Shown here: piece after piece, positions 11,322-31,696 of the stretch
Numbering within the stretch: the stretch's first letter is position 1
How the letters are laid out: each line of letters starts with the position of its first letter
From: Anaerolineae bacterium
GTDB taxonomy: Bacteria; Chloroflexota; Anaerolineae; Aggregatilineales; Phototrophicaceae
Length of the DNA: 35,667 nt
Direction of reading: 5' to 3'
Assembly (NCBI GenBank): GCA_030950085.1
Contig: JAUZRW010000025.1
Span: 1-35,667 of the forward strand
The notes under the pieces: model-generated
Database searches by the model: none
What the model was told of the DNA's origin: nothing
What the model saw: only the letters and a program-made list of their open reading frames with translations
Translations under genes and position numbers: made by a program

Positions 11322-12989
11322 TTAATTTAGCTTATCAATCAGGATTTCGAGGAAGTCATCGTCTATGAATGAGCCTTTTTGGAGCATCATGTCTGTATTT
11401 TCACTCAAGAAAGTACGCTCTTTTGTGGTGAGTTCCTTGGCAGAAACAACGACAATCGGGATATCACGCAAGGTTTCATCACCGCGCATGGTTTCAATCA
11501 CCTTAAAGCCATCGACATCCGGCATCATCAAATCAGTGATAACTAAATCGGGATGAATTTCGCGGATGATATTCAAGCCGGATTCGCCATTATGTGCGAG
11601 GTAAACCTCACTATTTTTGCGTGATTCTAAGATGCGGCTCATGAGACGTGCGGCAGCTTCATTATCTTCGATAACCACAACCCGACGCAAAGTCCCTTCT
11701 ATCTGGCTTACTGCAAGATTCAAATCGTCTTCAGGGACAGGGGCTGTTGTCGAGGCTCGTGATAAATCCAACACTTTTTGCCATTGTTCGCCGAGAATAC
11801 GTTTTTCGACGGGCAACGTATGACCAGAAACATTGATGACGACAACATCATCGGGCTTAATAAGTCCTTGACGTACCATGCGAATCAGCCCTGCGAACGT
11901 CACGCCCGTAGCGGGTTCAACGGAAATCCCATCGAGGCGTGCTAGTACGCGAATCGCGTTAAAGGCTTCTTCATCTGAGGCAGATTCAAAGTGTCCGCCA
12001 TTTTCTTGGACATAATCATAGAGAATTTCATAAGCACGTCCGGGATTGCCCGTAGCGAGAGTCACGATGACGGAATCGGATGTTTCTATCGGGGTGGCGA
12101 CTCGTTGCCCACGATTGAACGCCTCAACCATCGGCGCACAGCCCGATGACTGAATTAGACCAAAAGCTGGCAATTTATCAATTAAGCCGAAGCCCAACAT
12201 CTCGCGGAAACCTTTGGCAATGCCGATAGGTCCTAATCCACCACTGACCCCTTGCAAGAACCAATCGGGCGCACGCCACCGTTTGCCGTCTTCTAAGATA
12301 ACGCCGAGTTGCTCACCAATTTCATAAGCCATCGTTTTCATCGCTTCGGTAGCAGCGACACTCTTAATGCCTTTATCGAGAAATAAGCCTTTAGCACGCG
12401 CAAAGTTAGCCGCTAATTCTTTCGTTTGGTCATAAGTGCCTGTTGTCTTGATGATTTCTGCGCCGTAGATACCTGCCTCGCGCATTTTATCGTTAGGGGT
12501 TAATTGAGGGAAGAATGCCCACAAATGAATACCCGCACGCGCCCCATATGCAGCATAGGCAATGGCGACATTCCCTGTACTGGCAACCACTACATCGTCA
12601 ACCGCCATTTCTTTGAGGGCTGTAACGGCGACGGTTGCCTGTCGGTCTTTGAAGCTACCCGTTGGTCCCTGACGCTCATCTTTGAGGTAGAGATGATTCA
12701 AACCAAGACTTGCCCCTAGCGCGTGAGATTTAATGAGTGGTGTACCACCCTCATCTAGCGAGACGATGTTATCTGTATCAAAAATTGGCAACACCTCATG
12801 ATAACGCCACAGCGTCGGCGGGCGGTTTTTGATTTGTGCTAACCATTCTGTCGGGTTGATTTTTTCTAGTTCATACCGTGCCTCAACGATATTTTCACCA
12901 CATTGAGGGCATAGTCCCTTGAATTCCTTAAAGTCAATGACAGTACCACAGTTGGTACATTCCAATAATATTTGCTTCTTTATTGCCAT
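11322..12989 (-). CDS. threonine synthase fused to a response-regulator receiver domain, 555 aa
   Basis: Residues 1-410 are a fold II PLP enzyme of threonine synthase type, which makes threonine from phosphohomoserine: zinc ribbon C11/C14/C27/C30, PLP lysine K114 in GPTGSFKDRQ, the STGNVAIAYAAYG loop and a late VINVSGHTL loop. A 20-residue linker follows. Residues about 434-553 are a full receiver domain with the acidic pair in VVIEDN, phospho-acceptor D486 in ITDLMMP, a switch serine in VVVSAKE and the lysine in MLQKGS. The receiver has all the residues needed for phosphorylation. It is the last gene of the signalling operon; its ATG is 3 bases after the kinase stop codon, so translation is coupled. 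Whether the enzyme is controlled by phosphorylation is inference. Confidence 0.88.
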   Translation of the reverse strand: MAIKKQILLECTNCGTVIDFKEFKGLCPQCGENIVEARYELEKINPTEWLAQIKNRPPTLWRYHEVLPIFDTDNIVSLDEGGTPLIKSHALGASLGLNHLYLKDERQGPTGSFKDRQATVAVTALKEMAVDDVVVASTGNVAIAYAAYGARAGIHLWAFFPQLTPNDKMREAGIYGAEIIKTTGTYDQTKELAANFARAKGLFLDKGIKSVAATEAMKTMAYEIGEQLGVILEDGKRWRAPDWFLQGVSGGLGPIGIAKGFREMLGFGLIDKLPAFGLIQSSGCAPMVEAFNRGQRVATPIETSDSVIVTLATGNPGRAYEILYDYVQENGGHFESASDEEAFNAIRVLARLDGISVEPATGVTFAGLIRMVRQGLIKPDDVVVINVSGHTLPVEKRILGEQWQKVLDLSRASTTAPVPEDDLNLAVSQIEGTLRRVVVIEDNEAAARLMSRILESRKNSEVYLAHNGESGLNIIREIHPDLVITDLMMPDVDGFKVIETMRGDETLRDIPIVVVSAKELTTKERTFLSENTDMMLQKGSFIDDDFLEILIDKLN

Positions 12990-12992
12990 TCC

Positions 12993-15900
12993 CTAGCCTG
13001 CTCCATTGTTTGCTTTTAAGTATGCTCGTACATTGTCAATGAACTTGTTGTAGTCTTCTTCGCCGATATCAGACTTGGGTAGCACTTGGACATTCAGCAA
13101 ACGCTCTTGTTCGTTACTATTCAAATCCAAATCTCCGGTCACAACAAGCACCGGAATTCTAGCCGTTTCAGGATTACCGCGCAATTCATCTAACACCGCA
13201 AAGCCATCTTTACCGGGCATCCGTAAATCAAGGATGATAAGGTCAGGGCGACGACGAGCGACCAACGAAATACCCTCATCACCACTTTGGGCGCTAAACA
13301 CTTTATAATCGCCATGGTCATTAAGCAATTGAGTCAACAGACGGATTGCGTCCGGTTGGTCGTCGATAATGAGGATGCGTTCATGTTGGCTTTCCAATTC
13401 GGCTTTCAGCACCGCTTGTAACAACTCATCCGGCAAGAAAGGTCGTTGAATAAACATATGTGCGCCGAGACGATAGATTTGCTCTGAGTCGTCACTCATC
13501 GTCGTGACAATAATCGGAATGTCGTAGGTATCATCACGTTCTTTGAGATTCTTGAGCAGTTCCCACCCTTTCCCATCAGCAAAGTTCACATCCATAATGA
13601 CGACCTGTGGACGCATTTGGCTGACCATCGCCTCAGCATAAGCTGGGAAGTCGGCAGTTTGTACTTCAAAGCCTTCGCGCTGCAAAATACGGCGGAATTG
13701 GTTCACCATATCTTTGTTGTCTTCAATGAGTAAGGCAAGGCGCTGCTTATTCATCATCGGGATACTTTGGGTGACATTGGCATCAATCATGGCAGAGCGT
13801 TGTGGTCGAACAGTCTTCATTTGCTGGGTATCGCCCATCGGCTCACCCAAATCGGTGGCTAGAGATGGAATATCATCGGTATGGTCTTCTTTAATCCTTT
13901 TTGCCTTCTCGACATCCGCCTTGCTAATGAGACCACTAGCAGGCGCACTCGCTTCAGATTTTTTATCATCTAGTCCTGTATTGTAAGTCCGTTTCCCTTC
14001 TCGTAGGCGTTCGAGTTCTTCTTCTGCGCCTTGATAACAGGGGATAGTCACACTAAATGTTGAGCCGACCATCATCTCGGAGGCAACCAACAGTTCGCCA
14101 CCTTGCATTTCTGCCAATGATTTTGAAATGGGCAAACCGAGACCTGTACCACCAACAGTCCGTGTGAGCGAGTTATCAACTTGACGGAATTGCTGGAACA
14201 GAATGGGCATATCTTTTTCTTCAATACCAATCCCCGTATCAACGATGTCAATGCGTACCAATGTGCCGTTATGACCTTCCATGGTATACGCCCGAATCGT
14301 TACACCGCCCTCATTGGTGAACTTAATGGCATTACTCACCAGATTGAGCAAAATTTGGCGGCTACGGAATTCATCACCAAATGCTTGTGGCATATTCGGC
14401 GCAATTTCCACGGTCAGCATCAGTGGTTTTTCTTTTAACATGCCAATAGCAATTGATTTCACGCCCTCAATCATGGGCTTCACGTCAAAATAACTGAACT
14501 GTAAGTTGAGTTCGTTAGCTTCAATCTTGGCTTGGTCAAGAATGTCGTTAATCAAGTTCAGCAGGTGATTGCCACTATTAAAGATGGTACTTAGGTCTTG
14601 CTCTTGCATATCCGTCAAGGGTCCATCAATCCCTTTGAGCATCACACGGCTAAAACCAATAATGGAATTAAGCGGTGTCCGTAACTCATGCGACATACTG
14701 GCAAGGAATTGGCTCTTGAGGCGGTCAACCTCTCGTAATTGCTCGACTGTTTCTTCAAGCTGTTGCAGTAGCAATGTATTCTGGATAACTGCCGATAATG
14801 ACCCCGATAGTGTCAAGAGCAGAGTTTCCGTATCGTTGTCATAGGCATTGGGGCGCGTGCTTTCCACGACGATGAGACCAATTAATCGCGCACCGGAGCT
14901 AATGGGTACAGCCATAGCAGAATTTGCATTGAGGCTGATAGGGAAATAACGCTCATCATGCGCTACATCTTGAATCATCTGTGTTTGTAAACTTTGCCCG
15001 ACGATTCCGAAGATGTTCTCTTCATCACCGATTTCAATGCTACTTATATTGCCCGCAGTCACACCGCTCTCAATGGCGAGTGCTTCAATTTCTAACAGGG
15101 TTTTTTGATTGCCGTGAAAATCTTCATATACTTGGGGCAAGAAGATAGCAACAGCCTGCGAATTCAGTGCCTCACGCATCTGGCTGGCAACTGTCTGCAA
15201 CGATTCGCCCAATGTCTCGGCGGCGGCAGCAGCGGTGGTGACTTCAAAGAGGAAGCCCATGTCAGCGGCTGAACGTTCGGAATCTTCGTAGAGTCGGGCA
15301 TTTTCAATCGCCACGGCGATTTGTGCTGAAAGTGTCGTGAGTACCTGTATGTCTTCGTCGGTAAAGGCATTCGGTTGGTTAGATTGCACATCAAGCGCCC
15401 CGACAACCTCGCCTTTAACCAAAAGCGGCAATGCCATTTCAGAACGAGTGAGTGGTAGGAATGGATTCGGTGCATGAATGACGTTAGCATCTGCTGTATC
15501 AAGGGCAATACTAGGTTCGCCGACTTCGGTCACACGCCCAATAACGGAGGCAGAGCCGCGTTGCAACTTGTGTTCAACATTCAACAACCTTTCGCCGGCT
15601 TCACCGGTACTAGCGTGCAAAATTGCCCAGTCGTTCTCGTCATCCATGAGGAAGATTTGCACATGGTCATAAGAGAATTGCTCTTGAATGAGCGCGACCA
15701 CCTGTGGCAGCAAGACATCAAGGTCTAGGATTTGACCGACACTTTGGCTAATCACAGCAGAAGTTTGTAGTTGACGAGCGCGACCTTCTGTTTGCTCAAG
15801 CAAGCGAGCTGCTTCTAATGTCAGCGATGTTTGTTCTGCGAAGGCTTGGAAGATACGCATATCACGGGCTGAATAACGATAAACGTCTTGTGACCCTAAC

Positions 15901-18900
15901 CAAATAGCCCCTATTGACCGTCCGGGAACTTGTAGTGGGATGATAACCAATGAGCGAGAATCCAAACTTTCAATACTGGTCTGCTCCATCATGTCAAGGT
16001 CGTATGCTTCATCATAAATATCGTGAATTACACTTACAGTATCTGTCGATAATTGTGTCCACGCTGGGAACTGGTCTGGGCTGAGTGTCACGCCGAGTAA
16101 GTCGATATCACTGCCCGATTGCCAACTTGCGGCGACTTCCACGCTTGCTCCGGCGGCATTCCAATCCGCCGTGTTCAGCAAAGCGATAAAGACTTGATTG
16201 ATATGTGGCTCAATCAGATAATTGACAATCACATCAATAATGTCTTTAGGGTTGTTTGTATCAAGTAATGCCTTTGATGCTTGATAGAGGACACTGGTTT
16301 CTTGCAGTGTACTTTGAACCTGTTCCAACAACACTTGATTATCAATGACCACACTCGCACTGTCCACAACGGCATTCATAAAGTTCGTTTCGTTTTCTGT
16401 AAACAAATGCTTGTCCTTGAAAGCAACGAATAAACGCCCATCATGCTTATCTTTCATACGGAGGTTGATAGCTGCAAATGCTTGGATATTTTGCCCTTTT
16501 AGCACAGCACGTTCAAAATCGCCTAATGTGGTACGGGTAATATCAGCAACGTACATCCCATCTGCTTGAGACAGGGGTAATCTCATTAAATCACTGAAGT
16601 TCATGCCATTTTCAACACTGTCTCCAAAGCCCCTATTGAACATTTCGAGAAGCCCTTGTTCTTGTGTGAGGAAACCCGCGTACATATCCGCACCCAAACC
16701 TGCCAATGCTGTTTCAATGGCTGAGAACAATTCCATTAAATTGTGTGAGCGACTGATAGTGGTTGTTGCACGGTACAGCGCCGCCGTTTCTTGTAGTGCC
16801 TCTTGTGTACTGGCAACGAGCATTCGATTATCAACGGCTGTGCTTGCCATATCAGCAATCGTTGTCATGGTGCGTTCTTGCTCACTGGTGAAGGCTTCCG
16901 GCTCATTATCAATGATGACTAACCAACCCAATGGGCGAGGACGACTCTTAGAGCGTAGCGGCAGTACCATAACAGCCCGTGCGCCCACATCCATCAAATT
17001 ACGGCGTGCGTCAGAATCTAGCCCTGTTGACCGTTGGACATCATTGATGTTTAACAGGTTATCCGTTAGGACAGGATAGAGTGCATTTGCATTTTCGATG
17101 GGTTGGACGAGATAACGCGCTAATTCTAATGTATGACTCTCTTCATTATTGAGGATGATATAAGCATCGGTGGGTTGTTGCATCGTCAACTGAGCGATGA
17201 TGTTATTCAGTACGTCATCTAAAGTATCAGATTCTGCGAGGGTTTGTTGTGTTTGGTATAGCAGCATGGTTTCACTAAGATTCGCTTGTAGGGTGTTTTC
17301 CACATCTCGCAAGGTACTAATGTCTTGGAAAGCTGCCACAATCGCAAACATCTCATCATCATCATTAAAAATGGGGGCGGCAGTCATCAGTAAGTCTGTT
17401 TGACCGAGAGGGTGCAAGATAGCGAGGTCATCACTTTGGACTTGCCGTGCGCCACGTTGAGCCTGATAGATAGGCAGGTCTGCATTAGGATAATGCAGGT
17501 TGGTGCCAGTACGATAAATATTATAGACTTCGGCGCTAAAAGGTTCATCATACTTGATGACTTGCCCCAGCAATGATTCGACCCGCTCGTTATGTTGCAG
17601 GGGCTTGAGCGATTCTGAGTCGAGGACAAGGACACCTGTGGGTAAGGTCGAGAGAATTGTGAACAAACGCTGACGTTCAAACTCTGTTTCACGTTGCAGA
17701 CTCTGATTTTCTATGGCAATCGCAACTTGGTCAGCAATGGCTTGTAAGTATTGAGTATAGGCTTCATCCAGAAAATCGGGCTGGTTAGAGCATAGAATCA
17801 TGATGCCAAACCAGCGTTGACGTGACCACAAAGGCGCTACGGCTGCACTTGTCGCACCATGCTGTGTGAGAATATTCCTCAACGCTGCCCATGTAGACGG
17901 CGCATCCACTTCAATATCAGGGTATAGCAGCATACTATCATCATTATCGTGAATCAGTGTACCGAATGGTGCTTCTGCATGTGGAATAAGGCTGCCATTT
18001 TCGGCAGGCAAGGGTCGCTTCGGGTCATCGTGCCACTGATATTCATAGCGTAATGTGGGCGTATCAATATCAGGATCCGGGTGAGCAAGTAAAATACTTA
18101 TCGAGATGTTTAAGGCTTCGCTAGGGTCTTGTTCGATACGCTGTTGAATGAGGGGCTTGGTGAGATGACCGGCAACGGCATCGTAAACGGCTGTGATATC
18201 ATGGGCGCTAGAAATTGCACGTGTTGCGACATAGAGACGGTGTGTTTGTTCGAGAGCGTCTTTTGTCTGCTCTAATAAACGCCGATTCTGGATTTGTGTA
18301 CTCATTTGCCCTGTCAGCGATTTATAGGCTTCATAATCATCTGTCGAGAGTTCATATTCATCTTGTGCCACAACGTAGAAAAAAGCAATCGGCGTATTTT
18401 CACTAAACAACGGGAAAATCACCATAAACTTTAAGCCCATTTGCCGCATATTCGCAACAGCAGGTGGCATATCTTCACTATCAGAATCAGACTCAAAGTC
18501 AGTCAGCACTTCTGGCTCTCGACGGCGCATCGGTGAATCCTCACTGATGGTCATCGGGTAGATTTCATTTGTTTCATGCACTTTGCCATTTTCTGATTTG
18601 GCAATGATTCGGGCTTGTACAGACCAGCCCTCTATGTCAGGGTCGCCATCGCTTAAGCCCAGCCAAAAATCTAAGCGTGCATCTGGTGTTGTTGCCACTG
18701 CCGCATACACTAAGTCTGACAAGTTTTGCGCGGTATTGACAATTCGACTGGCAGCATAGAGATTTTCTTGGCGTTCTAGCGAGTTTTCGGTTTCTTGTAA
18801 CAAGAGGCGGTTATCAATAGCGATACCTGCTTGACCAATCAAGGCATTGTAGATTCGTTTTTCGCCATCGCTAAAGCGGTGTATTTTGTCAAATTCAACA

Positions 18901-21377
18901 GTCATGAACCCTTTCCACTCACCACGCATATTCAATGGGATAAAGACAATAGAGCGAGCATTAATAGCCACAAATAGTTGAATCAACGCGCCACTCATAA
19001 TAGTGCTAATGCGTGCAATATCTTCAAAAAACACCACATCATCTGGGGTTAATTGTGCCATAAATGGATAGCGCGACAGTTGAAAACGTTGCCCGACTAA
19101 ATCAACAATTTCGCTGCGTGGCACAATTTCGAGGTCTACATTGAGGCGTACCCAATCCGGTGCAAGTGACGGTTCATCCTCATCAAACAACCATACTTGA
19201 CCCCCAGCCGCATCCGGCGCAACAGTGACGATAATCGCTTGTAAAACATCTTCAAGGGTATTGGCTTCGTTCAGTTGACGACTCAACTGATACAGGGTTG
19301 ATGTTTCGCTCAAGCTGACTTGTGTTTCTGCAAAGAGGCGTGCATTCTCAATGGCAAGTGCGACACGTTCCGCCACCGCTTGCAGAATCGTTCTGTCGCC
19401 TTCACTAAAGGGTTGTCCATCGGGCAAATCGGCATCTAATGTCCCAATGACTTCGCCACGAATACTAATCGGGGCAGACAATACCCCGTCCACAGAAGCG
19501 AGACCATACTCCCCTTCAAGACCTAAACTCTCTTCAACTTGTTGCCATGCGTGGCGTGTTAATTGTCGATTGAGGCGGTCAATCTCTTGGATACGAGTAT
19601 TCGATTGTTGCCGCAGTTGTTCGTTGTAAACAGCAACCGCAATTTGGTCAGCTAATAACTGGTAAGTAGGTGCATCTTCGATTTGGAAAGCATAGGGTAT
19701 CCGGCTTTGGATATCGAGTACGCCAATGACATTATCACCAATGATGAGTGGCAAACCCATCTCAGCTCGCGTATCCGGCAGGAGTGGGTTAGCACTGTGC
19801 GCTTCGCCGCCTACCTCCAAAGTATCGTTGACAATGACCGAGCGTTTCTCGCTTGTCACTGTTCCAACGACAGATTCTGAACCGACTGCGAGACGATGAC
19901 CGCGTTCAATCAGTTGGCGACCTGCCTCGCCGCGACTATAGCGTAGCACGGCATATTTGTTGATGCCATCCAGCAAGAAGACTTGGGCGTGGTAAAAGCC
20001 GAGTTCGCTACAAATTAGGTTGATGGCACGCTTTAAGAGTGACTCCAAATCGCTTTGTGCTGCTGCTTCGCGCCCAATCAGACCGGCGACTTGCATATCT
20101 CGATTGCGCCGTTCAATCTGTGCCACTAACTCGTTGTCAAGATTTTCCAATTTATCGGCAATACGATTAACAGAATCTAGCAAGGCACTATCTGCGGCTG
20201 CATCAGAAACTTCGCTACGAGGTGGTCTGGCAAGCTGGTCGGGCTGCATTGCAATCTGTTGGAGTAGGGCATCAGCCTCTTCTACAGGAGCAAAAAGCGG
20301 TGTGAGCAAATAACGCAATGCCATCAACATCAAGACAACGACAACAACTGACATTAGGACAATCGCTATCACAATCCAGAATGTGGGTGTGTAGTATGTG
20401 AAGCGATTATCGACGAGATACAAGCGCCAATTGACATTTTGCCCACTCTCAGATGTGATGCTTTGGGCTGAGTAAGTCATTGGGGATAAAAGATTGGATG
20501 ATTGTAAGAAGTATTCTCCCGTATTCTGGTTATTGAATATCAACAAGTCTTGATAGAGTGGGTCTACAGTCGCATTTGAATTACCTGCTGCCAGTGCCAG
20601 AATATAGGCATTACCCACTGTGCCATCGTCATTGCCGTCTGCGATGATGCGGTTTTGATTATCCAGTAAGATAAGATGACGATTTTCTTGCTCAACGATG
20701 ATTCTGCCCTGCGCTCTCCGTACAGAAGCTAACATATCATCCACATTAATTTCTAGCTGAACAACACCAATCGGAGCCGATTGTGAATTGGGGATAATGG
20801 GCGTAAAAATGTCCAAGATTAAGGATGCCGTTGGTTCGCCGGAATCGGACAAGCGTAAGCGGAAGTCGCCGACAATCGGATTAACATCCTCAGAATTCAT
20901 CGCTTGTAGAAACGCTGGCGATTCGGCAAACGATGATAACGGCGCATTCCCTTCAATATGAACTTCAGAGTTAGCGATGCCATTGTTGTTGCTAATATCA
21001 ATACGGATATTCCCATTGGCATCAAGATGACGAATAGCGATGTATTCTCGACTATGCAAGGCAATTAAATCTGCCGCACGCGATGTCGCTTGGTTCACCC
21101 CTAATGATGTACCGTTGATGAAACGGATGACAGAGGGGTCACGCGCCAAACTTTGGCTATTGCTGATGTGCAGGGCTAGGTCACGTTCGAGTTGTTCATC
21201 GACAAAAGAAAGACCTGATTCATGCTCATTTCTGAGTTCATTTCTGGCTGTTGCAACGACTCCACGGATGGAAAGGAGCGCAAAAATAGTGATAGCGATA
21301 CTCACGACAGGCACAAGTCGGCGCATCACCTTATCTATGTAAGATTTGCCATGCGGTAGAGTGGCATGTTGGCTCAT
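12993..21377 (-). CDS. giant membrane-bound multi-GAF hybrid histidine kinase, 2794 aa
   Basis: Order of parts (positions approximate): helix 21-43, extracytoplasmic Cache-like sensor 44-330, helix 332-357, then cytoplasmic GAF 440-590, a half-GAF after a coiled stretch 600-690, GAFs near 720-860, 900-1030, 1095-1225, PAS 1240-1356, GAFs 1400-1520, 1565-1680, 1725-1860, 1905-2025, 2074-2200. HisKA has the phospho-accepting H2230 in SMSHELRTPL; HATPase has VDTGIGI and GGTGLGL (near 2408); receivers carry D2596 (IMDVNF) and D2717 (ILDLRMP). The frame is unbroken and the start ATG 21377 has AAAGG upstream. It is the only kinase in the operon. It autophosphorylates by family knowledge; each GAF may bind a different ligand or serve as a signalling spacer. 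Confidence 0.92.
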   Translation of the reverse strand: MSQHATLPHGKSYIDKVMRRLVPVVSIAITIFALLSIRGVVATARNELRNEHESGLSFVDEQLERDLALHISNSQSLARDPSVIRFINGTSLGVNQATSRAADLIALHSREYIAIRHLDANGNIRIDISNNNGIANSEVHIEGNAPLSSFAESPAFLQAMNSEDVNPIVGDFRLRLSDSGEPTASLILDIFTPIIPNSQSAPIGVVQLEINVDDMLASVRRAQGRIIVEQENRHLILLDNQNRIIADGNDDGTVGNAYILALAAGNSNATVDPLYQDLLIFNNQNTGEYFLQSSNLLSPMTYSAQSITSESGQNVNWRLYLVDNRFTYYTPTFWIVIAIVLMSVVVVVLMLMALRYLLTPLFAPVEEADALLQQIAMQPDQLARPPRSEVSDAAADSALLDSVNRIADKLENLDNELVAQIERRNRDMQVAGLIGREAAAQSDLESLLKRAINLICSELGFYHAQVFLLDGINKYAVLRYSRGEAGRQLIERGHRLAVGSESVVGTVTSEKRSVIVNDTLEVGGEAHSANPLLPDTRAEMGLPLIIGDNVIGVLDIQSRIPYAFQIEDAPTYQLLADQIAVAVYNEQLRQQSNTRIQEIDRLNRQLTRHAWQQVEESLGLEGEYGLASVDGVLSAPISIRGEVIGTLDADLPDGQPFSEGDRTILQAVAERVALAIENARLFAETQVSLSETSTLYQLSRQLNEANTLEDVLQAIIVTVAPDAAGGQVWLFDEDEPSLAPDWVRLNVDLEIVPRSEIVDLVGQRFQLSRYPFMAQLTPDDVVFFEDIARISTIMSGALIQLFVAINARSIVFIPLNMRGEWKGFMTVEFDKIHRFSDGEKRIYNALIGQAGIAIDNRLLLQETENSLERQENLYAASRIVNTAQNLSDLVYAAVATTPDARLDFWLGLSDGDPDIEGWSVQARIIAKSENGKVHETNEIYPMTISEDSPMRRREPEVLTDFESDSDSEDMPPAVANMRQMGLKFMVIFPLFSENTPIAFFYVVAQDEYELSTDDYEAYKSLTGQMSTQIQNRRLLEQTKDALEQTHRLYVATRAISSAHDITAVYDAVAGHLTKPLIQQRIEQDPSEALNISISILLAHPDPDIDTPTLRYEYQWHDDPKRPLPAENGSLIPHAEAPFGTLIHDNDDSMLLYPDIEVDAPSTWAALRNILTQHGATSAAVAPLWSRQRWFGIMILCSNQPDFLDEAYTQYLQAIADQVAIAIENQSLQRETEFERQRLFTILSTLPTGVLVLDSESLKPLQHNERVESLLGQVIKYDEPFSAEVYNIYRTGTNLHYPNADLPIYQAQRGARQVQSDDLAILHPLGQTDLLMTAAPIFNDDDEMFAIVAAFQDISTLRDVENTLQANLSETMLLYQTQQTLAESDTLDDVLNNIIAQLTMQQPTDAYIILNNEESHTLELARYLVQPIENANALYPVLTDNLLNINDVQRSTGLDSDARRNLMDVGARAVMVLPLRSKSRPRPLGWLVIIDNEPEAFTSEQERTMTTIADMASTAVDNRMLVASTQEALQETAALYRATTTISRSHNLMELFSAIETALAGLGADMYAGFLTQEQGLLEMFNRGFGDSVENGMNFSDLMRLPLSQADGMYVADITRTTLGDFERAVLKGQNIQAFAAINLRMKDKHDGRLFVAFKDKHLFTENETNFMNAVVDSASVVIDNQVLLEQVQSTLQETSVLYQASKALLDTNNPKDIIDVIVNYLIEPHINQVFIALLNTADWNAAGASVEVAASWQSGSDIDLLGVTLSPDQFPAWTQLSTDTVSVIHDIYDEAYDLDMMEQTSIESLDSRSLVIIPLQVPGRSIGAIWLGSQDVYRYSARDMRIFQAFAEQTSLTLEAARLLEQTEGRARQLQTSAVISQSVGQILDLDVLLPQVVALIQEQFSYDHVQIFLMDDENDWAILHASTGEAGERLLNVEHKLQRGSASVIGRVTEVGEPSIALDTADANVIHAPNPFLPLTRSEMALPLLVKGEVVGALDVQSNQPNAFTDEDIQVLTTLSAQIAVAIENARLYEDSERSAADMGFLFEVTTAAAAAETLGESLQTVASQMREALNSQAVAIFLPQVYEDFHGNQKTLLEIEALAIESGVTAGNISSIEIGDEENIFGIVGQSLQTQMIQDVAHDERYFPISLNANSAMAVPISSGARLIGLIVVESTRPNAYDNDTETLLLTLSGSLSAVIQNTLLLQQLEETVEQLREVDRLKSQFLASMSHELRTPLNSIIGFSRVMLKGIDGPLTDMQEQDLSTIFNSGNHLLNLINDILDQAKIEANELNLQFSYFDVKPMIEGVKSIAIGMLKEKPLMLTVEIAPNMPQAFGDEFRSRQILLNLVSNAIKFTNEGGVTIRAYTMEGHNGTLVRIDIVDTGIGIEEKDMPILFQQFRQVDNSLTRTVGGTGLGLPISKSLAEMQGGELLVASEMMVGSTFSVTIPCYQGAEEELERLREGKRTYNTGLDDKKSEASAPASGLISKADVEKAKRIKEDHTDDIPSLATDLGEPMGDTQQMKTVRPQRSAMIDANVTQSIPMMNKQRLALLIEDNKDMVNQFRRILQREGFEVQTADFPAYAEAMVSQMRPQVVIMDVNFADGKGWELLKNLKERDDTYDIPIIVTTMSDDSEQIYRLGAHMFIQRPFLPDELLQAVLKAELESQHERILIIDDQPDAIRLLTQLLNDHGDYKVFSAQSGDEGISLVARRRPDLIILDLRMPGKDGFAVLDELRGNPETARIPVLVVTGDLDLNSNEQERLLNVQVLPKSDIGEEDYNKFIDNVRAYLKANNGAG

Positions 21378-21392
21378 AGTAGATGCCTTTGC

Positions 21393-23693: not shown

Positions 23694-23695
23694 GC

Positions 23696-25345
23696 CTATC
23701 CCTCAGTTGCTCTACGGGTTTCTGGCTGAAGATGAATTTTGGTTTGCACAGCGCCGAGTGTCTCATTAAAATTTTGCGCTGCGAGATTCAAAACAGTTTC
23801 AATATCGGTACTACTGAGTAAGAGACTACCGACTTCATTCGCCTTACTCTCGCGTTGGGCTTGTGCGCGACTTTGCTCGAAGAGGCGCTTGTTTTCTAAT
23901 GCTAGACCTAAACGCTGAACCACACTACGTATCAATTCGGTCTGGCGTGTGCCGATACTCTGGCTGCCTTGTGCGACTTTAAAAGACATCGCGCCGAGTG
24001 TTCGTCCGCGCAGTAAAATAGGCACACTGACCATCTGGAAATTGTCTTCGACGCGCACAGAAATCTTGCCTGTTTCAAGGGCAGGTCGCAAATCTTGTGA
24101 AAGTTTGCTTGCCAGTGTGGGTTCAGCCGTATTTGTTGCCATATCAAAGCCCAGATATTGCAGCCCACGTTGTTCTAAATAAGCTTTCCATGTGCTGATG
24201 GTGGCGCGTTCTTCGGCTTGTTCATATTCGAGCATTTTGGCACGCTGCAATGTCACAATCTCATTCTGATCAGACAAATTGGCACGCAGTTCGTTCATCA
24301 ACCGAGCTTGGACTATCGTTCCGCCCAAATGTTGCGCTAATAATTCCAGCATATCAACTTCGTCGCTATCAAAAGGCTGGGTTACTTCACGCTGCACATC
24401 CAATACACCCACAAATTGCTGCTCAACATAAATCGGGACAGCCGCCGCAGATTGGATAGCGGGTAAAAGATGGCTTTGGCGCATTGCACCGCCATCAGAC
24501 TCGATTAACACTGTACGGCGTGTCCGAATGGCTTCATAGATGGCACTTTCAGACCCCAATTGAATTTGAGTTTCAACATTGATTTGCGTCTTGTTTAGAC
24601 CTACCGCAATACTCTGTCTAATTTGTGAATTTTCATCTGTCAGGAAGATACGGGCATAGGTATAGCCCAAGCGGTCACGCAATATATCAATCACATCGGC
24701 GCTGAGGTGTTGCTCATCGGTGTTTATCCCTGTTTGTGATACGCGACTTAAGATAGATTTCAAGTCTTCTACAGTGGAGAAGCTGCGCCGCGCCATACTC
24801 TGGATATTGCTCCCAAAAACTGTAATCCAGCTGCCGACGATAATTAGGATAAGGCTGATAATGGCGAAATCTTCACCAATACCGAGATTATCGGCTTGTG
24901 GCGAGAAGAAAGCAATTTGCATCAGCAAGCCAATCATGACGGCAACTGTCACAAATGTACCGCGCCAATCGAGCATGACTCCGGCGACGACGACTGCAAT
25001 CACCACTGCAATCACATCCCCACGACCAAAGCCGTCGAATGCGGCATAATATCCGCCAAGACCACTGACGATAATCGTAATGATAATCGCCAATTGCAGA
25101 TAGCCACGATTGACCATGACATAGGTTGCCACCGCCACAATGGGCGCGATAGCTGTCACAACAAGGGCGGGGGATAAGACAGCATTTAGGACGATAACAT
25201 AAAATAGCAAAATAGCTGAATAAATTATCGACCCGACAATCGCAAAGCTGAGAATGACAAGCAGCGCACGGGCGTGTTGTACATCGAGTGGGTTGTCATA
25301 CGAATAGCGCGGGTCAAAAAAGCGTTCTGTTAGGCGACGTATCAT
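23696..25345 (-). CDS. multi-spanning membrane GAF protein without kinase domain, 549 aa
   Basis: About six membrane helices in residues 25-185, a short coil, a divergent GAF at about 215-355 (YTYARIFLTDENSQ to GVLDVQ), the linker with TWKAYLEQRG, a GAF C-half near 445-500 (VPILLRGRTLGAM) and the shared trailer ending near TKIHLQPE. Its GAF is the least like the others in the operon. The start ATG overlaps the previous stop by four bases (ATGA), showing translational coupling. The membrane part is not a Cache sensor, so it may sense within or through the membrane. Confidence 0.82.
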   Translation of the reverse strand: MIRRLTERFFDPRYSYDNPLDVQHARALLVILSFAIVGSIIYSAILLFYVIVLNAVLSPALVVTAIAPIVAVATYVMVNRGYLQLAIIITIIVSGLGGYYAAFDGFGRGDVIAVVIAVVVAGVMLDWRGTFVTVAVMIGLLMQIAFFSPQADNLGIGEDFAIISLILIIVGSWITVFGSNIQSMARRSFSTVEDLKSILSRVSQTGINTDEQHLSADVIDILRDRLGYTYARIFLTDENSQIRQSIAVGLNKTQINVETQIQLGSESAIYEAIRTRRTVLIESDGGAMRQSHLLPAIQSAAAVPIYVEQQFVGVLDVQREVTQPFDSDEVDMLELLAQHLGGTIVQARLMNELRANLSDQNEIVTLQRAKMLEYEQAEERATISTWKAYLEQRGLQYLGFDMATNTAEPTLASKLSQDLRPALETGKISVRVEDNFQMVSVPILLRGRTLGAMSFKVAQGSQSIGTRQTELIRSVVQRLGLALENKRLFEQSRAQAQRESKANEVGSLLLSSTDIETVLNLAAQNFNETLGAVQTKIHLQPETRRATEG

Positions 25346-27027
25346 AGGGTTTCGCTTCCATTATGAGCGTGTCCATTTGCTTCCTCGATAGGCGGTGCGA
25401 TATCTTCGGGTAGGCGACCTAAGCGTATCGCCCCTGCTTCCGCGCCAAGTGTTTCAATTAAGCCTTCGAGTGTAATTTGTAGCAAATCATCGACTGTATT
25501 CGCTGATTGATACTGCGAGACCAATTCACCAATACGCTGCTCTTGGGCAGTGGCTTCTTGCGTCTCTTCAAACAAACGAGCATTATCGAGACTCACGGCA
25601 AGGCGTTGTGAAATTGCTTGAATCATATCAATCGTGCTTTCATTACTCGCGCTGTCTATATCTATCTCAATCGCACCGACAACCTCACCACGCAATTCAA
25701 TCGGGACAGCAATTTTATCCGCACCATCTTCTTCAAACGCGATAGGTCGCCGCCGTTGACCCGATTCCACCATTTTGTCTGTCCACTGTGCCTTGTTGTT
25801 AAACCGTTGCCCGTCTAGTGTGACACCGATGATGCGCCTGTCCATTTTGAGATAATCTGCCCATGCTTGGCGCGTTAACTGACGATTAAGGCGTTGAATT
25901 TCGCGCAGGTTGGTTTCAGACTCGATGAATAGGCGCTTGTTCTCGTCCAGATTATGTGCCTGTCTCTCGAAAAGCCGTGCATTACGAATCGCAGTTGCTA
26001 ATTGATTAGTAATCACGTTCAAGATGCGAATCTCGTTGTTCGTAAAGGCATTAGAGACGCGGCTTTGGACATCTAATGCGCCGATAATGCCATCACCGTC
26101 TCTAATCGGAATCGCCAACTCAGAGCGCGTATCCGGCAGCAACTCATTAAAGGCATGACCTTTATCTTGGTCGGCATCACGAGCGATAATCGGTTCGCCA
26201 GAAAGCGTTACACGCCCGATAACACTATCAGCCGCTAAAGGTAAGCGATGACCACGCGCCAACATTTGTTCACCCACTTCACCGGTGCTGGCTTGTAGAT
26301 AAGCGTATTCACGGGCTTCATCAATCAAAAAGATTTGGACATGATAAAAGGCGAAACGGTCACGCACAATCTCCACTGAGCGTTTCAGCAGTTCATCCAA
26401 TTCCAGCATTTGTGACACATTTTGCCCAATATTGGCGCTTGCCTCAAGTAAGGCTGCTGTCCGTTGAGAATTACGAGCAACAGCTTCTAAACGGTCAATG
26501 AAGAAGCGCAGCATTAATCCCAGCACTGGCGGCAGCAATGTCAGCAGCAGTGTGACGATGACGGGGAAAATTGTACGGTCTAGTTCTGCCAATTCAGCAC
26601 CGAGCTTACCACTATAAGTAACAAACCACACCGTTGCTGTAATAGATAGCGCATTCACAAGCCAAAAAATAAGGCGTGGAGAGATAATCGCGGCACTCAC
26701 TGTCGCCAGCATGAGCAAGATGATGAGGATATCAAAATCTCCTGTGAAGGAGAAAATGCTGACAAGAACAAGATAAATGACAGCACTTGTGCCGATAGTA
26801 CGCACATTACGCCCACGATGCACAATGGCTAAACCACCCGCAGAAAGCCCGGCCGCTAGAGTAGAAACGATACCAGAGAAGGAAAATAAGCTATCTTCAA
26901 GTTGAATCGTAATGGCGAGTACAACACTCGCTACAAGAATGAATATCAACAAGACCTGAACTGCCCGTATCCGCAATTGCATGATGACATCTTGTGCGTC
27001 TGTTTTGGGGATAAAATTCGTTAACAT
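25342..27027 (-). CDS. multi-spanning membrane GAF protein without kinase domain, 561 aa
   Basis: About six helices in residues 20-185, GAF at about 225-350 with the common YHVQIFLID...LDVQS pattern, the linker RLNRQLTRQAW, a GAF C-half (AVPIELRGEVVGAIEIDID) and the trailer ending AGAIRLG. The start is placed at ATG 27027, 7 bases after the upstream stop, with GGAG ahead of it; an in-frame codon at 27129 would overlap the upstream gene by about 95 bases and is unlikely. No output domain. Confidence 0.82.
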   Translation of the reverse strand: MLTNFIPKTDAQDVIMQLRIRAVQVLLIFILVASVVLAITIQLEDSLFSFSGIVSTLAAGLSAGGLAIVHRGRNVRTIGTSAVIYLVLVSIFSFTGDFDILIILLMLATVSAAIISPRLIFWLVNALSITATVWFVTYSGKLGAELAELDRTIFPVIVTLLLTLLPPVLGLMLRFFIDRLEAVARNSQRTAALLEASANIGQNVSQMLELDELLKRSVEIVRDRFAFYHVQIFLIDEAREYAYLQASTGEVGEQMLARGHRLPLAADSVIGRVTLSGEPIIARDADQDKGHAFNELLPDTRSELAIPIRDGDGIIGALDVQSRVSNAFTNNEIRILNVITNQLATAIRNARLFERQAHNLDENKRLFIESETNLREIQRLNRQLTRQAWADYLKMDRRIIGVTLDGQRFNNKAQWTDKMVESGQRRRPIAFEEDGADKIAVPIELRGEVVGAIEIDIDSASNESTIDMIQAISQRLAVSLDNARLFEETQEATAQEQRIGELVSQYQSANTVDDLLQITLEGLIETLGAEAGAIRLGRLPEDIAPPIEEANGHAHNGSETL

Positions 27028-27034
27028 AAGCAAC

Positions 27035-28729
27035 TTACTCCGTAGCACCATTTGCTTGACGCTGGCTTTGTTTTCTGCGTTCTGGGATACCGAGACGAAT
27101 CGTGACTTTGTTAGCCTGCAATGTATCACTGAGACTGCGAGCGGCTTCTGCTAAGGTCGCCTCTACATTGATAGCCGATTGTAAGCGCGTGCTAATTTCG
27201 TTGATGAGTGCTTCGCGCTGGGCAGTACGCTGGCTCTCTTCAACCAGCCGTGTATTTTCTGCGGCGAGACCAAAACGCCCACTGACTTCCTGCACCAGTT
27301 CCAAATCTGCTGGTGTGAACTCGCCCTCTGCGTCTAACTCAAATTCCATCGCCCCGACCACCACACCACGAACGCGCAACGGCACGGCAATGATATTATC
27401 TTGCAGGACAATGCCCCCTGTTTGCGCCGCATTCTGAAGCGATTCTGTCCAATCCGAAACACTTTCGACAGTATTGCTATCGACTTCAATATTTAAGCCC
27501 AGTAATTCACCCTTATCACCAAGATATTCTGACCATGCTCGTCCAATTAATCGCTGGTTCAAACGCTCGACTTCTCGCAAAGCATGTCGCGTCTGTTCCG
27601 CAAGACGTTGATTTTCTTCGACACGCGCTTTCGCTGCCTTAAACTGGCGAATATTATCAATGGCAAGTGACAAACTATTTGCTAAAGATTGAAAAGTCAG
27701 CATATCAAATTCGTCTAATACCAAATCTTCACGACTCTGCAAATCGAGTGCACCAATAATATTATCACTAATCTGCAAGGGAAAAGCGACTTCAACACGG
27801 GTCTCGGCAAGTAATTGATTTTGACGATGAACAGAGTCTTCATCGCTGGAACGTGCAATTACAGCTTCCCCTTGAAATGTGGTTTGCCCGATAACGCTCA
27901 GACTACCCACGGCGAGGCTATGCCCTTTTTGAATGAGTTGCTGACCGGTTTCGCCTGTGCTGGCAACTAAACGGGCTTGCACACCATCGTCATTAATGAG
28001 GAAAACTTGTGCATGGTAAATCTGCGGGTAATTTTCCAAAATCATTTGTAGTGCATTATTCAATGTTTCATCAAGCGATGCACGCTCTGAGGCTTGGCGT
28101 GTAATCCGTGTATTGATTTCTGCCAACTTGAATCGCTCTGCACTTTCGATAACACGACCTTCTGTACGATTTGCCTTCGCATAGCGCAGAAAGACATATA
28201 CAATGACAAATAGCACGAGGTAAACACCAAAACCTTCAATACTGGCATTCACAAAACTATCCGGTGATGCAGTGACAAATATCAGGGCATATGCCAGAAC
28301 GCTGCCACCACCCAATACAGCCAAACCTTTCTCACCTAATGTTATCGCACTCAACACCAGAATTGTGGCTAACATCAAATACTCAAAATCGGACTCCTGA
28401 GTATTAATGATGGTATAAAGGACAGTTGCGAGCAATGCGCTGCCTAAAAACGCCGCCGCACTTAGATAGTAACCAAAACGCACGATTGCAATCACAACAA
28501 GGGTGATTAGAGCAAAAACAACACTAATGCCAAATTCGATACTTAGTCCATTGTTAATTGTTTGGATTAAGATAGTGGAGCCGTCGCTATTTGGTAAAAT
28601 AATAAAGACAATCACATCAGCAATGAGCATAATGCTTGCTAAGATATAGAGTAATCGCGCTTGTTCTTTGCGTGCGGCGGTCTGATAATGTTCTGTGCTA
28701 AAGAGTGTGGTCAGCAAAGTATCCATCAC
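27035..28729 (-). CDS. multi-spanning membrane GAF protein without kinase domain, 564 aa
   Basis: Six or seven helices in residues 25-190, GAF at about 238-363 (YHAQVFLIND...ALDLQS), the linker RLNQRLIGRAWSEYL, a GAF C-half near 455-500 (AVPLRVRGVVVGAMEFELD) and the trailer ending KVTIRLG. The start is GTG 28729 or the ATG next to it at 28726; both are well spaced from GGGAG, and the upstream stop ends right there. No output domain. It is a paralogue of the two genes that follow it. Confidence 0.82.
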   Translation of the reverse strand: MMDTLLTTLFSTEHYQTAARKEQARLLYILASIMLIADVIVFIILPNSDGSTILIQTINNGLSIEFGISVVFALITLVVIAIVRFGYYLSAAAFLGSALLATVLYTIINTQESDFEYLMLATILVLSAITLGEKGLAVLGGGSVLAYALIFVTASPDSFVNASIEGFGVYLVLFVIVYVFLRYAKANRTEGRVIESAERFKLAEINTRITRQASERASLDETLNNALQMILENYPQIYHAQVFLINDDGVQARLVASTGETGQQLIQKGHSLAVGSLSVIGQTTFQGEAVIARSSDEDSVHRQNQLLAETRVEVAFPLQISDNIIGALDLQSREDLVLDEFDMLTFQSLANSLSLAIDNIRQFKAAKARVEENQRLAEQTRHALREVERLNQRLIGRAWSEYLGDKGELLGLNIEVDSNTVESVSDWTESLQNAAQTGGIVLQDNIIAVPLRVRGVVVGAMEFELDAEGEFTPADLELVQEVSGRFGLAAENTRLVEESQRTAQREALINEISTRLQSAINVEATLAEAARSLSDTLQANKVTIRLGIPERRKQSQRQANGATE

Positions 28730-30853
28730 TTAATCTCCCGAAGGCTTTGGCACATTTAAACCCAAACGGATGCGTGCGCGTTTTGCGCCGAGTGCCTTGC
28801 CCAACTCTTGTGCTGTCACCTGCAATATAGCTGTTACATCGGTTTGTTGTTGTAGCATGGCAATAATCTCATTCGCTTTTACTTTATTTAGTGCAAGGCG
28901 TTGACTCTGCGAATAAGTTTCGGCATTGGCAATAGCGACAGCCAGTTGATTAGTCATCTGGCGGAAGGCGGCGACATCAGTGGTGCTGTATGCCCCATCG
29001 TGCAAGCTACCCACTTCCAAAACCCCCAACAAGACACCCCCAGCAATTAACGGCGCGACCATCAATGAGCGCAATGTGGCAACCCATGGATGTTCCCAAT
29101 CCCAACCAGATTGTAGAGCCTCAACATGAATAAGATGTCGTTTTTCCCATGCTTGTGCGGCAATGGTGTCACTTTCTTTTGCAACAGCGATGCCCGGCAA
29201 TGTGACTTGACCGCCATCTTCCCAAAATTGGGCGCTCATCCGAAAATTTTCAATATTGCGATCATATATCATCACGGCGACATAATCCGCAGTGATAATG
29301 TTACGGCTGTATTCCAAAACAGTGCTGAGGATTTCTTCTAATTGCAATGAGGCTTGCATCGCCTGACCAAACTCCGCGATTTGTTGCAGTTGTGCCGCTT
29401 GCGCCTGTGAATGTCGCAAAAGGCGTAATTTTTGAAGATTAACAGCAATCTGAGAAACCATGGCTTCCGTTGACTCAATGGTTTGTGGCAAAAAAGATGC
29501 CACTTTTTCGTAACGGTCTAAACCAATGGTCGCTAATAATTTCCCATTCAGGTCAAACATCGGTAAGAAGATAACGGATTGCACCTTGAGTTCGGTTAAT
29601 ACTTGCCGACTAAGGGGGGGTAAGGTTGTATCCTGAACAACATCAGGGATGATGAGTGATTGACCACTCTGACGCAGAATCTCAGCGATGCTGTTTGCAC
29701 CCGCTTCAACTTCTACCCCAACACTACCCGTATCCGGATACTCGGCTACAATGTGAGAAATAGCATTGTCAGCAGCCAGCAAGCCAATACCCACATGGTC
29801 AAACTCTGTCGCCTCATAGAGTACCTGTACCATATCTTGCAACAATTTAATTTCATCTTGTTCCACATTGGCACGCTGAATTAAACCATTGAGCAGCGAC
29901 AAGACCCGTGTTTGCTCTTGGGTTTGCTGGAGAAGACGACGTTTTTCAATGATAGCGGCGGCTTGTTGGGCAATGTTCTGGAAGATTTGCTTTTCTAGCG
30001 GGGTGGGGGCTAAAGAATTTGTTGTATCAATAATCGTGATGAAGCCATAAAGTGTATTTTGGATATGAAGCGGCAAGCAGTAGAGTGAATGTAGATTGCG
30101 TGATTGCAACCATGCACGGTCTTCTTCGGTAAAGCGTTCATCTGTTTCAGCATTACTGACGAGAAAATCCCCTTGCGTAAGCAGGTTTTCATGGACAATC
30201 TGAATGTAAGAAAGATTGACAGCAACAGGGTCATCAGTTTGGAAAGTTGCTGAACGATTGGCTGTGACGATTGCTGTAGCGCCCTCAAGTGTTCCGTCGG
30301 CTGCATAATCAAAAACATTGATAGCGACAAACTGTGATTGCTGGATTGAGTTGATAGCGAAGATGCTCACAATTTGCTCTAATGATTCGGCTTGGCTAAA
30401 TTGTGATGTGAGAGTGACTTCGCGCTGGAGGAGTTGCTCTAGCTGTTTGCTATACAATACCGAACTTAATTGGGCGGCGATAGTATCCAACATATACTTA
30501 TCTGCTGGAAGTTCACTACATTCGACAGTGAGAAGCCCAAATATGGCGTTATAACGCCCTCGAAGCGGCGCAATTAACAAATTATGGCGTTCATCTATTG
30601 TAGATTCACCCGATGTAGCCGCATGTTGATAGGGTGAGCCGTCTTCTATGGGATAGAATTTACCAAGAATCGCATCACCATCGACACTATACCAAACGAC
30701 CATGCCATCATGCGTGAGACGATAGACCTGAGCGCAAGTCGCGTTTGGGATACTGTCAATCACCTCCGGTAGTGCCTCTTCTAGCACAGCTTCGGGTGTC
30801 GAAATATCTTGCCGATGAACAAGTGGGAGCAAATTTACATTTTCTTCGGTCAT
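28730..30853 (-). CDS. soluble four-GAF protein, 707 aa
   Basis: No membrane segment or signal peptide. Four GAF-type domains in tandem at about 10-150, 160-325, 340-495 and 510-660, each joined by helices of the LLQQTQEQTRVL kind, then the operon's common trailer (ELGKALGAKRARIRLG). No kinase or other output. It is the first large gene of the operon and is 49 bases downstream of the second response regulator. Likely a cytoplasmic sensor subunit for the giant kinase (inference). Confidence 0.85.
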   Translation of the reverse strand: MTEENVNLLPLVHRQDISTPEAVLEEALPEVIDSIPNATCAQVYRLTHDGMVVWYSVDGDAILGKFYPIEDGSPYQHAATSGESTIDERHNLLIAPLRGRYNAIFGLLTVECSELPADKYMLDTIAAQLSSVLYSKQLEQLLQREVTLTSQFSQAESLEQIVSIFAINSIQQSQFVAINVFDYAADGTLEGATAIVTANRSATFQTDDPVAVNLSYIQIVHENLLTQGDFLVSNAETDERFTEEDRAWLQSRNLHSLYCLPLHIQNTLYGFITIIDTTNSLAPTPLEKQIFQNIAQQAAAIIEKRRLLQQTQEQTRVLSLLNGLIQRANVEQDEIKLLQDMVQVLYEATEFDHVGIGLLAADNAISHIVAEYPDTGSVGVEVEAGANSIAEILRQSGQSLIIPDVVQDTTLPPLSRQVLTELKVQSVIFLPMFDLNGKLLATIGLDRYEKVASFLPQTIESTEAMVSQIAVNLQKLRLLRHSQAQAAQLQQIAEFGQAMQASLQLEEILSTVLEYSRNIITADYVAVMIYDRNIENFRMSAQFWEDGGQVTLPGIAVAKESDTIAAQAWEKRHLIHVEALQSGWDWEHPWVATLRSLMVAPLIAGGVLLGVLEVGSLHDGAYSTTDVAAFRQMTNQLAVAIANAETYSQSQRLALNKVKANEIIAMLQQQTDVTAILQVTAQELGKALGAKRARIRLGLNVPKPSGD

Positions 30854-30902
30854 AGCAGTTCTAACCCCTGTAACGGCGATTTGTTATTGACAGTATAGAG
30901 CT

Positions 30903-31325
30903 TTACTGCCACTCCCAGACTGCTTCCCCGTTCAATAAACGCCGAATTTGCTCTGGGAAACGGTCTGCATCGAGCGGTTTGCCTAGGAAGCCATCAAAAC
31001 CGCTTTTTTGGGCGCGGCGCATCTGGTCTTCACTAGCTTCTGCGGTGACGGCACACACAATCGTTTCTTTCAAACGTGGGTTTGCCCGTACTTTTTGCAG
31101 GGCTTGGTAGCCATCTTCATATGGGAGGCGAATATCCATCAAAATTAAATCAATACGGGGTAACGTCTCGGCAAATTGGACGACCTGCCAACCACTCGTC
31201 TTCCACTCACAACGTTGAACTCCCATAAAAGCCAACATACGGGCAATCAACACGAAATTCGGTACATTATCTTCGACCACAAGGACGTGTGCTTCACTAG
31301 GGTCAATCGGATTACGTTTACTCAT
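30903..31325 (-). CDS. single-domain response regulator, 140 aa
   Basis: A receiver domain alone: acidic pair E18/D19 in VVEDN, phospho-acceptor D64 in LMDIRLP, switch threonine in AVTAEA, K116 in GKPLD. No DNA-binding or enzymatic output. It probably carries phosphoryl groups between proteins or binds a target. ATG 31325 has AAGGA upstream and lies 8 bases after the previous stop. Compared with its neighbour it has an insertion around QRCEWKTSGWQVV, so it is not a simple duplicate. Confidence 0.9.
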   Translation of the reverse strand: MSKRNPIDPSEAHVLVVEDNVPNFVLIARMLAFMGVQRCEWKTSGWQVVQFAETLPRIDLILMDIRLPYEDGYQALQKVRANPRLKETIVCAVTAEASEDQMRRAQKSGFDGFLGKPLDADRFPEQIRRLLNGEAVWEWQ

Positions 31326-31333
31326 GTGCTTCC

Positions 31334-31696
31334 TTATGTAAGAAATTGCGAAATCTCATCAACAAAGGTATCAATATTAATCGGCTTGCTGATGTAACCA
31401 TCACAGCCTGCCTCTAAAATCATCTCACGATCACCTTGCATGGCATTAGCGGTGACAGCGACAATTCGTGTTTGGGCAATACCGGGAATGCTACGAATAT
31501 AATTCGTGGCTTCCAAACCGTTCATTTCCGGCATCGCAATATCCATTAGAATCAGATTTGGTTGATGCTCAATTGCCAGTTGGATACCATCGGCAGCATT
31601 ATCAGCCTCATCGACTTCAAAACCCTCAGCCACAAGCACGCGCTTCACGAGCAGACGATTGGCAAAATCATCATCAATATATAGGACACGCGGCAT
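31334..31696 (-). CDS. single-domain response regulator, DivK-like, 120 aa
   Basis: A complete receiver domain with IDDD at the start, phospho-acceptor D52 in LMDIAMPEMNG, VTANAM and K104 in ISKPIN, the pattern of DivK/CheY-type regulators that pass phosphoryl groups in a relay. The start is ATG 31696, 8 bases after AGGAG; a TTG one codon upstream is less likely. It is the first gene of the nine-gene operon, preceded by an inverted repeat at 31732-31770. Confidence 0.92.
   Translation of the reverse strand: MPRVLYIDDDFANRLLVKRVLVAEGFEVDEADNAADGIQLAIEHQPNLILMDIAMPEMNGLEATNYIRSIPGIAQTRIVAVTANAMQGDREMILEAGCDGYISKPINIDTFVDEISQFLT

Follow-up and report, generated by a model that had tools for sequence, protein, structure and literature searches.

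The window analysed here, 35,667 nucleotides from an Anaerolineae bacterium, is one entire contig (JAUZRW010000025.1) of a 5.09 Mb genome. Open reading frame (ORF) calling places nine tightly packed genes on its minus strand at 11322-31696, here called recA, recB, gafA to gafE, HK and thrR in the direction of transcription. On balance we read these genes, along with a transporter gene behind them, as a dedicated multi-input two-component system with one giant kinase, in which a pyridoxal phosphate (PLP) enzyme switched by its own receiver would be the main output and an EamA-family transporter would be coupled to it. The operon is large, conserved in Chloroflexota and apparently undescribed. 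Many two-component systems end in a DNA-binding protein, and few signalling systems of Chloroflexota have been tested; the conservation found here suggests a kinase that is regularly accompanied by a metabolic-type enzyme carrying its own receiver, and by a transporter. Such a system would give a direct case of phosphorylation-gated amino-acid chemistry, would model how several kinase-less sensors share one kinase, and would lead to a family of PLP enzymes easily mistaken for threonine synthase.

The initial annotation of this DNA had described nine packed minus-strand genes encoding two receivers, five GAF proteins without kinase (four in the membrane), one hybrid kinase and a threonine synthase-receiver fusion. 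The ORFs, their sizes and their spacing agree with that description, as does the domain content found by Pfam and hydropathy, the fusion being one of a PALP and a receiver (REC) domain. The features are as follows (aa, amino acids).

31334-31696, minus strand: recA, receiver alone, CheY/DivK-like, 120 aa from the ATG (Response_reg 93.1 bits)
30903-31325, minus strand: recB, receiver alone, 140 aa (Response_reg 65.5 bits)
28730-30853, minus strand: gafA, GAF protein without kinase, probably soluble, 707 aa, three GAF stretches (Pfam)
27035-28729, minus strand: gafB, membrane GAF protein without kinase, 564 aa (Pfam, hydropathy)
25342-27027, minus strand: gafC, membrane GAF protein without kinase, 561 aa from the ATG at 27027 (Pfam, structure model)
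23696-25345, minus strand: gafD, membrane GAF protein without kinase, 549 aa (Pfam, hydropathy)
21393-23693, minus strand: gafE, membrane GAF protein with HAMP and without kinase, 766 aa (Pfam)
12993-21377, minus strand: HK, giant hybrid histidine kinase, 2794 aa (Pfam, motifs)
11322-12989, minus strand: thrR, four-Cys N-terminus, PLP domain of threonine synthase fold and REC, 555 aa (Pfam, structure model, alignment)
9775-11040, or to 11070 from a TTG, minus strand: EamA-family transporter with a C-terminal extension (Pfam EamA 63.5 bits, cut-off 28.2)
31700-32409, minus strand: gap of about 0.7 kb upstream of recA, the likely site of the operon promoter

Conservation of gene order

When 61 genomes were searched with thrR, 49 proved to contain the fusion (identity of at least 49%), among them the window's own genome and three with partial matches; neighbourhoods were taken from 40 of the 48 other relatives bearing thrR, and their ORFs were called. 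Conservation of gene order, which the initial annotation had put forward as a check, was borne out: the full order recA-recB-five GAF genes-HK-thrR is found in 12 of the 15 other genomes of the same family in which thrR is preceded by 20 kb or more of sequence (G002, G005, G006, G008, G009, G010, G012, G013, G014, G015, G021, G022, G027, G031 and G036). In G013, G014 and G015 the recA-recB-GAF-HK cluster lies on another contig and thrR stands apart from it; G013 also has one GAF gene fewer, and its HK is read as two ORFs. The same order in other genomes rules out a chance clustering of the nine genes.

The number of GAF genes is lower in other families (three in G043, G049 and G054, none in G039 and G046), and gene order is kept at GAF-protein identities as low as 24-51%. 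G162, G170 and G341, of another class, have a kinase of 1877 aa before thrR; in these three contexts kinase-less GAF proteins were not seen. The kinase gene stands directly upstream of thrR in 51 of 61 thrR contexts, a set that includes the window and the second thrR copies of some genomes. Among the named loci, which are the best 80 of 563, the kinase comes directly before thrR in 57 of the 76 with more than 1 kb upstream, or in 52 under a stricter kinase-motif rule (four loci had been scored on the wrong PALP gene). Chloroflexota-type titles are carried by 78 of the 80 named relatives.

L186, titled Bacteroidetes bacterium, and L209, titled Pleurocapsa minor, both have the fusion, and the title of L209 is probably wrong. 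At E 1e-30 the fusion matches 48 plasmid records, and none of the matches spans 80% of the protein. Loss of the GAF-HK operon in the genomes of family f7 proved to be a wrong reading: the operon sits elsewhere there, and its kinase is without detectable REC.

The PLP enzyme of thrR

The thrR protein carries PALP and REC domains, both above the Pfam cut-offs, with the PLP lysine at Lys114 (counted from Met1) and the receiver residues Asp486 and Lys538. As the phospho-accepting Asp and the Lys of the receiver are kept in 41 of 41 copies, thrR qualifies as a REC-plus-enzyme protein. Its predicted structure has a mean pLDDT (predicted local distance difference test) of 77.7. The best fold matches of the model are threonine synthases (2c2b, Z 40.8, root-mean-square deviation (rmsd) 2.9, 378 residues aligned), and next comes the cysteate synthase CapA2 (9k3c, Z 35.5, rmsd 3.0, 366 residues).

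The identity of thrR as a threonine synthase, as the initial annotation had named it, is nevertheless doubtful. With 160.4 bits the protein misses the cut-off of the NCBIfam thrC model (TIGR00260), 167.1, by 6.7 bits, whereas three other proteins of the genome pass it with 261.9, 208.1 and 175.2 bits, the first of them having the motif NSVNPFRLEGQK. For PRK08197 thrR scores 272.4, below the cut-off of 303, and the genome's other ThrC-like proteins likewise fall short of it. The cysteate synthase model (TIGR03844) failed as well: thrR reaches 115.9 bits, far below the cut-off of 324.9, against 75.0, 71.4 and 59.9 bits for other PALP proteins of the genome that were tested, and the PALP protein encoded at 5410-6525 is outside the best 25 matches. 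CapA2 has the same fold as thrR and an N-terminal extension, and stands far off by this model.

We aligned 22 fusions (16 thrR and six second-copy fusions) with four other PALP proteins of the genome. All 22 fusions share, without variation, SFKDR (which holds the PLP lysine), STGN and SGG-x-GP; the C-terminal S/T-G-H is retained as well. The NSxNxxRxEGQKT of the five solved threonine synthases printed is replaced by G-x-[KRSD]...E-[AS]-[MF]-KT, and the GN-x-GN loop of those five by an SGG-x-GP phosphate loop, both in all 22 fusions. The replaced residues are those which we take to hold the substrate phosphate in ThrC. One protein of the genome, C189, nearly keeps NSxNxxRxEGQKT; two others, C85 and C49, are above the thrC cut-off, yet are without the full NSxNxxR motif, so the full motif alone cannot settle ThrC identity. 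What thrR and ThrC have in common is the fold and the PLP lysine in SFKDR; thrR differs in scoring just under the thrC cut-off, in the replaced motif and loop, and in the added receiver.

Because the thrC cut-off is missed, motif and loop are replaced and the genome has three further proteins above that cut-off, thrR probably, though not surely, catalyses a reaction other than that of ThrC. For the same reasons of score and motif replacement we set aside an ordinary housekeeping threonine synthase as the leading explanation. We keep it as an alternative, in which thrR would be a true threonine synthase and the system would tune threonine supply to the environment. This we regard as unlikely, given the missed cut-off, the replacements in every aligned fusion and the other candidates for the role, even though the fold and nearest solved structures are those of threonine synthases, PLP lysine, STGN loop and S/T-G-H are retained, the margin to the cut-off is small, and C85 and C49 pass without the full motif. 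EamA proteins also include threonine/homoserine exporters such as RhtA.

In comparison with 15 relatives the PALP part of the window's thrR has a mean identity of 65% and the REC part of 52%. As the PALP part is the better conserved, the enzyme looks active. This bears on a further alternative, that the PLP domain serves as a scaffold or ligand sensor, binding an amino acid and signalling to the kinase by way of the receiver. The kinase-thrR pair is the most widely kept neighbourhood, and the motifs have drifted from those of known enzymes, as such a role would allow; invariant SFKDR, STGN and SGG-x-GP and a PALP part conserved beyond its receiver are, however, what an active enzyme is expected to have, and a transporter travels with thrR. 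We therefore find a sensor or scaffold quite improbable.

A second copy of the fusion, of about 45% identity, occurs in G005, G021, G038, G042, G045 and G048 (L153, L161-L164 and L168). Two terminal receivers are present in five of six second copies examined; a kinase gene adjoins the copy in G038 and G045, and in several a small receiver gene lies downstream.

The kinase and the receivers

HK comprises an N-terminal membrane part with a weak, sub-threshold dCache match, nine GAF_2 stretches, HisKA, HATPase_c and two REC domains (Pfam). HisKA and HATPase_c are above their cut-offs, and the H (2229), N (2345), G1 (2380) and G2 (2410) motifs are intact; with its receivers the protein is by these features a hybrid histidine kinase. 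Among the 28 kinases with two recognised receivers, the Asp of the first receiver is kept in 28 and its Lys is replaced by Arg or His in 20, while the second receiver is without Asp in five; two f7 kinases have no recognised REC. Against this stand the constant Asp and Lys of thrR, the Asp and Lys of recB in 21 of 21 copies and the phospho-Asp of recA in 19 of 20 (one gap). Since the receivers of HK vary or are missing, the steadily conserved acceptors are, on this sequence comparison, those of the enzyme and of the free receivers.

The most conserved of the nine genes is recB, with a mean identity in the family of 90% versus 62% for recA and 69% for thrR. Within the family its copies are 82-96% identical where the neighbours range from 27 to 74%, and across families they are 74-96% identical where the GAF proteins have 24-51%. 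The gene is found apart from the operon in some genomes, and a PHROGs search with recB gave unnamed families only. A hub that interacts with several partners would be conserved in this way.

Signalling between proteins by way of recB and recA, acting on motility, polarity or the cell cycle, could be the main output and thrR a side branch. The conservation of recB, its occurrence outside the operon and the ParA-type ATPases found in clusters of other families (see below) speak for this. Nonetheless G088, G132, G308 and G392 have HK, thrR and EamA with no recB within the 18-19 kb taken, and the nine proteins have no CheW, MCP (methyl-accepting chemotaxis protein) or CheA domain, so that we would not expect this branch to be the main one.

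Genes downstream of thrR

The EamA gene, which the initial annotation had left out of its single unit, is on the same strand as thrR and 251-281 bases downstream of it. From other families in the phylum 29 loci were compared, the best 29 of 54 places; the gene directly after thrR is EamA-like in 23 of them, and one locus, L107, has hardly any downstream sequence. In the named loci with more than 3 kb downstream, an EamA-like transporter is near thrR in 48 of 67. We take the EamA gene to be part of the conserved set, which widens the boundary of the operon.

The same 67 loci contain a second partner in 43 cases, a soluble protein of about 420 aa behind thrR with REC, HisKA and HATPase_c (one copy tested by Pfam), here called RHK; RHK and EamA are both present in 39. 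The statement that only one kinase serves the sensors thus holds for the window and fails for many of its relatives. RHK is absent from the window, and elsewhere in the assembly the best full-length match has 28% identity, with none at E 1e-70; we judge RHK to be absent from this genome or unassembled. In G006 and G014 an RHK-EamA pair is located away from thrR.

Co-occurrence across genomes

Of the 61 genomes, 42 have all four of thrR, recB, HK and EamA, nine have none of them and ten have a mixture; nine of these ten are less than 90% complete, and for the tenth, G037, a completeness of 92% is listed. The tally leaves RHK aside, and the counts are uncorrected for common descent. thrR was counted as present for the partial matches in G026, G028 and G056 and for G037 at 49%. 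The recB tally counts a match at a contig edge in G059 and omits matches of 52-59% in G037, G050 and G051. HK was scored at E 1e-90, and G034 was scored without HK despite a 180-residue HK fragment beside its thrR (L179). In G042 and G048 the parts are split into a recA-GAF-HK operon, a thrR apart from it and a recB on its own.

The conserved order and the co-occurrence of the parts when split over loci support the view that the nine genes behave as one unit. The single unit proposed by the initial annotation therefore stands as to its nine members and was incomplete as to EamA. In genomes that rearrange slowly, gene order by itself can be retained, and the genes might be neighbours by operon inheritance only and belong to no common pathway; the co-occurrence of unlinked parts and an order kept where the GAF proteins have diverged so far make this very improbable.

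Proposed mechanism

Our preferred reading of the operon, as a two-component system with thrR as main output, would work as follows. Several signals would reach the giant membrane hybrid kinase through the GAF sensors, five in the window and four of these in the membrane; the signals would alter the GAF proteins and HK, which may be physically coupled. HK would autophosphorylate, pass phosphate to its own receivers and presumably pass it directly to thrR, the main output, and to recA and recB. The phosphorylated receiver of thrR would then switch its PLP-dependent enzyme, and EamA would export the product of thrR or supply its substrate. In the many relatives that have it, RHK could feed or reset the same thrR switch, as a second source or sink of phosphate.

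A more specific form of the scheme has a secreted small molecule as output: phosphorylation would turn on the diverged PLP enzyme, and EamA would export the amino-acid-like compound that this enzyme makes. We consider this possible, if doubtful. If true, many environmental inputs would be converted directly into an extracellular amino-acid signal or common good, without transcription.

Several points weigh against our preferred reading. The control of the enzyme by its receiver is an inference. No Hpt match was found by Pfam (E 0.01) in a search confined to the nine proteins, so a relay from the receivers of HK to thrR would have no obvious carrier. Ten of the 61 contexts were scored without a kinase gene beside thrR, among them G071, where the sole reason is that the truncated thrR ORF went unscored. 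RHK and EamA are both missing from the vicinity of thrR in 15 of the 67 loci. In 16 further downstream stretches, mostly of second fusion copies and another class, an EamA-like gene was seen in only two, one of them on the other strand, and a small receiver gene behind thrR in ten; because EamA is rare and the small receiver gene common there, at least two kinds of thrR cluster exist. Kinase-less GAF proteins number from none (G039 and G046) to six per context, and owing to this range the GAF proteins are not essential everywhere. Finally, shared ancestry is uncorrected in the co-occurrence counts, and of the nine genomes with none of the four parts, six are generally poor in receiver-like candidates.

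GAF proteins and neighbouring insertions

By Pfam gafA to gafE have GAF domains only, plus HAMP in gafE, and a simple hydropathy count gives two to six membrane segments in gafB to gafE and one in gafA. In the model of gafC an N-terminal helix bundle is followed by a full GAF domain, a helix of 65 residues and a further GAF-like domain, with a helical tail at the end. The gafC fold search was filled by the single GAF domain, with the GAF of PtsP at Z 24.5 (163 residues, rmsd 1.8). An RLNRQLTR helix with a half-GAF is shared by gafC and HK, in the latter around residues 591-678, and the GAF-protein tails printed (60 of 162) mostly have a truncated GAF-like end piece. As these elements recur in the GAF proteins and HK, they suggest that sensors and kinase share an ancestral module; the two may pair through coiled coils. 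All five GAF proteins of the window (21393-30853) end in a truncated GAF-like tail, as do relatives, and this tail is a possible docking piece.

The HK gene is separated from the GAF genes by an ORF of 258-280 aa in nine of the 20 contexts that belong to other families. Two such ORFs that were tested, both from other families of the class, are ParA/MinD-type ATPases (L133 7070-7852 and L148 11499-12278), a type of protein that would suit a positioned array. The ORF at this place in G148 looks like a methyltransferase by eye. A substrate-binding protein of NMT1/THI5 type is found inside a related cluster (L132 6785-7810), hinting at a small-molecule input there, and similar-looking substrate-binding proteins were noted by eye in G106.

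Relation to known systems

Our searches of the open-licence literature turned up no paper that describes a threonine synthase/PALP-receiver fusion or this operon, in agreement with the initial annotation, which knew of no such system. Chemosensory systems (MCP array, CheA, CheY) are like the operon in combining several sensors, one kinase and single-domain receivers, and a further likeness is the ParA-type ATPase that adjoins the genes in some families. The operon differs in using a HisKA kinase and a GAF array, and a chemotaxis-type array was rejected, as none of the nine proteins has a Pfam match to the MCP signalling domain, CheW, HPt or the CheA domains. RhtA-type exporters are alike in their EamA domains and amino-acid related context, while the transporter here has a C-terminal extension of about 100 residues.

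The receiver-enzyme fusion is already known as a kind, and it is this fusion and operon that we did not find described. Receivers fused to metabolic enzymes are stated to occur in bacteria, and KaiC-REC and glycosyltransferase-REC fusions have been described in archaea (PMC5847659). The likeness to such REC-enzyme response regulators is that thrR joins a receiver to a metabolic-type enzyme. The archaeal fusions have a narrow distribution, and the section of that paper on them names no PLP enzyme (PMC5847659); the thrR fusion in contrast occurs in many families and more than one class of the phylum, in a recurrent context of kinase and transporter.

Boundaries and other genes of the window

From recA to thrR, with the ATG as start of gafC, the intergenic gaps are 8, 49, 0, 7, -4, 2, 15 and 3 bases. 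A second possible start of gafC is a GTG at 27129, and for recA there is an alternative TTG one codon before the ATG. The gap upstream of recA has one sigma-70-like match of 10 of 12 positions at 32032-32005, the number of such matches not being above chance. Promoter-like sites amounted to 25 and 20 versus 20.7 and 18.7 expected, and terminator-like sites to 15 and 8 versus 10.6 and 10.3 expected.

Farther downstream in the window, 5410-6525 encodes an unfused ThrC-like PALP enzyme, adjoining an endonuclease/exonuclease/phosphatase gene at 6561-7505. A PALP gene of 365-405 aa is also seen near thrR in L183, L189, L204 and L214, where it lies beyond EamA and a plus-strand ORF of about 340 aa.

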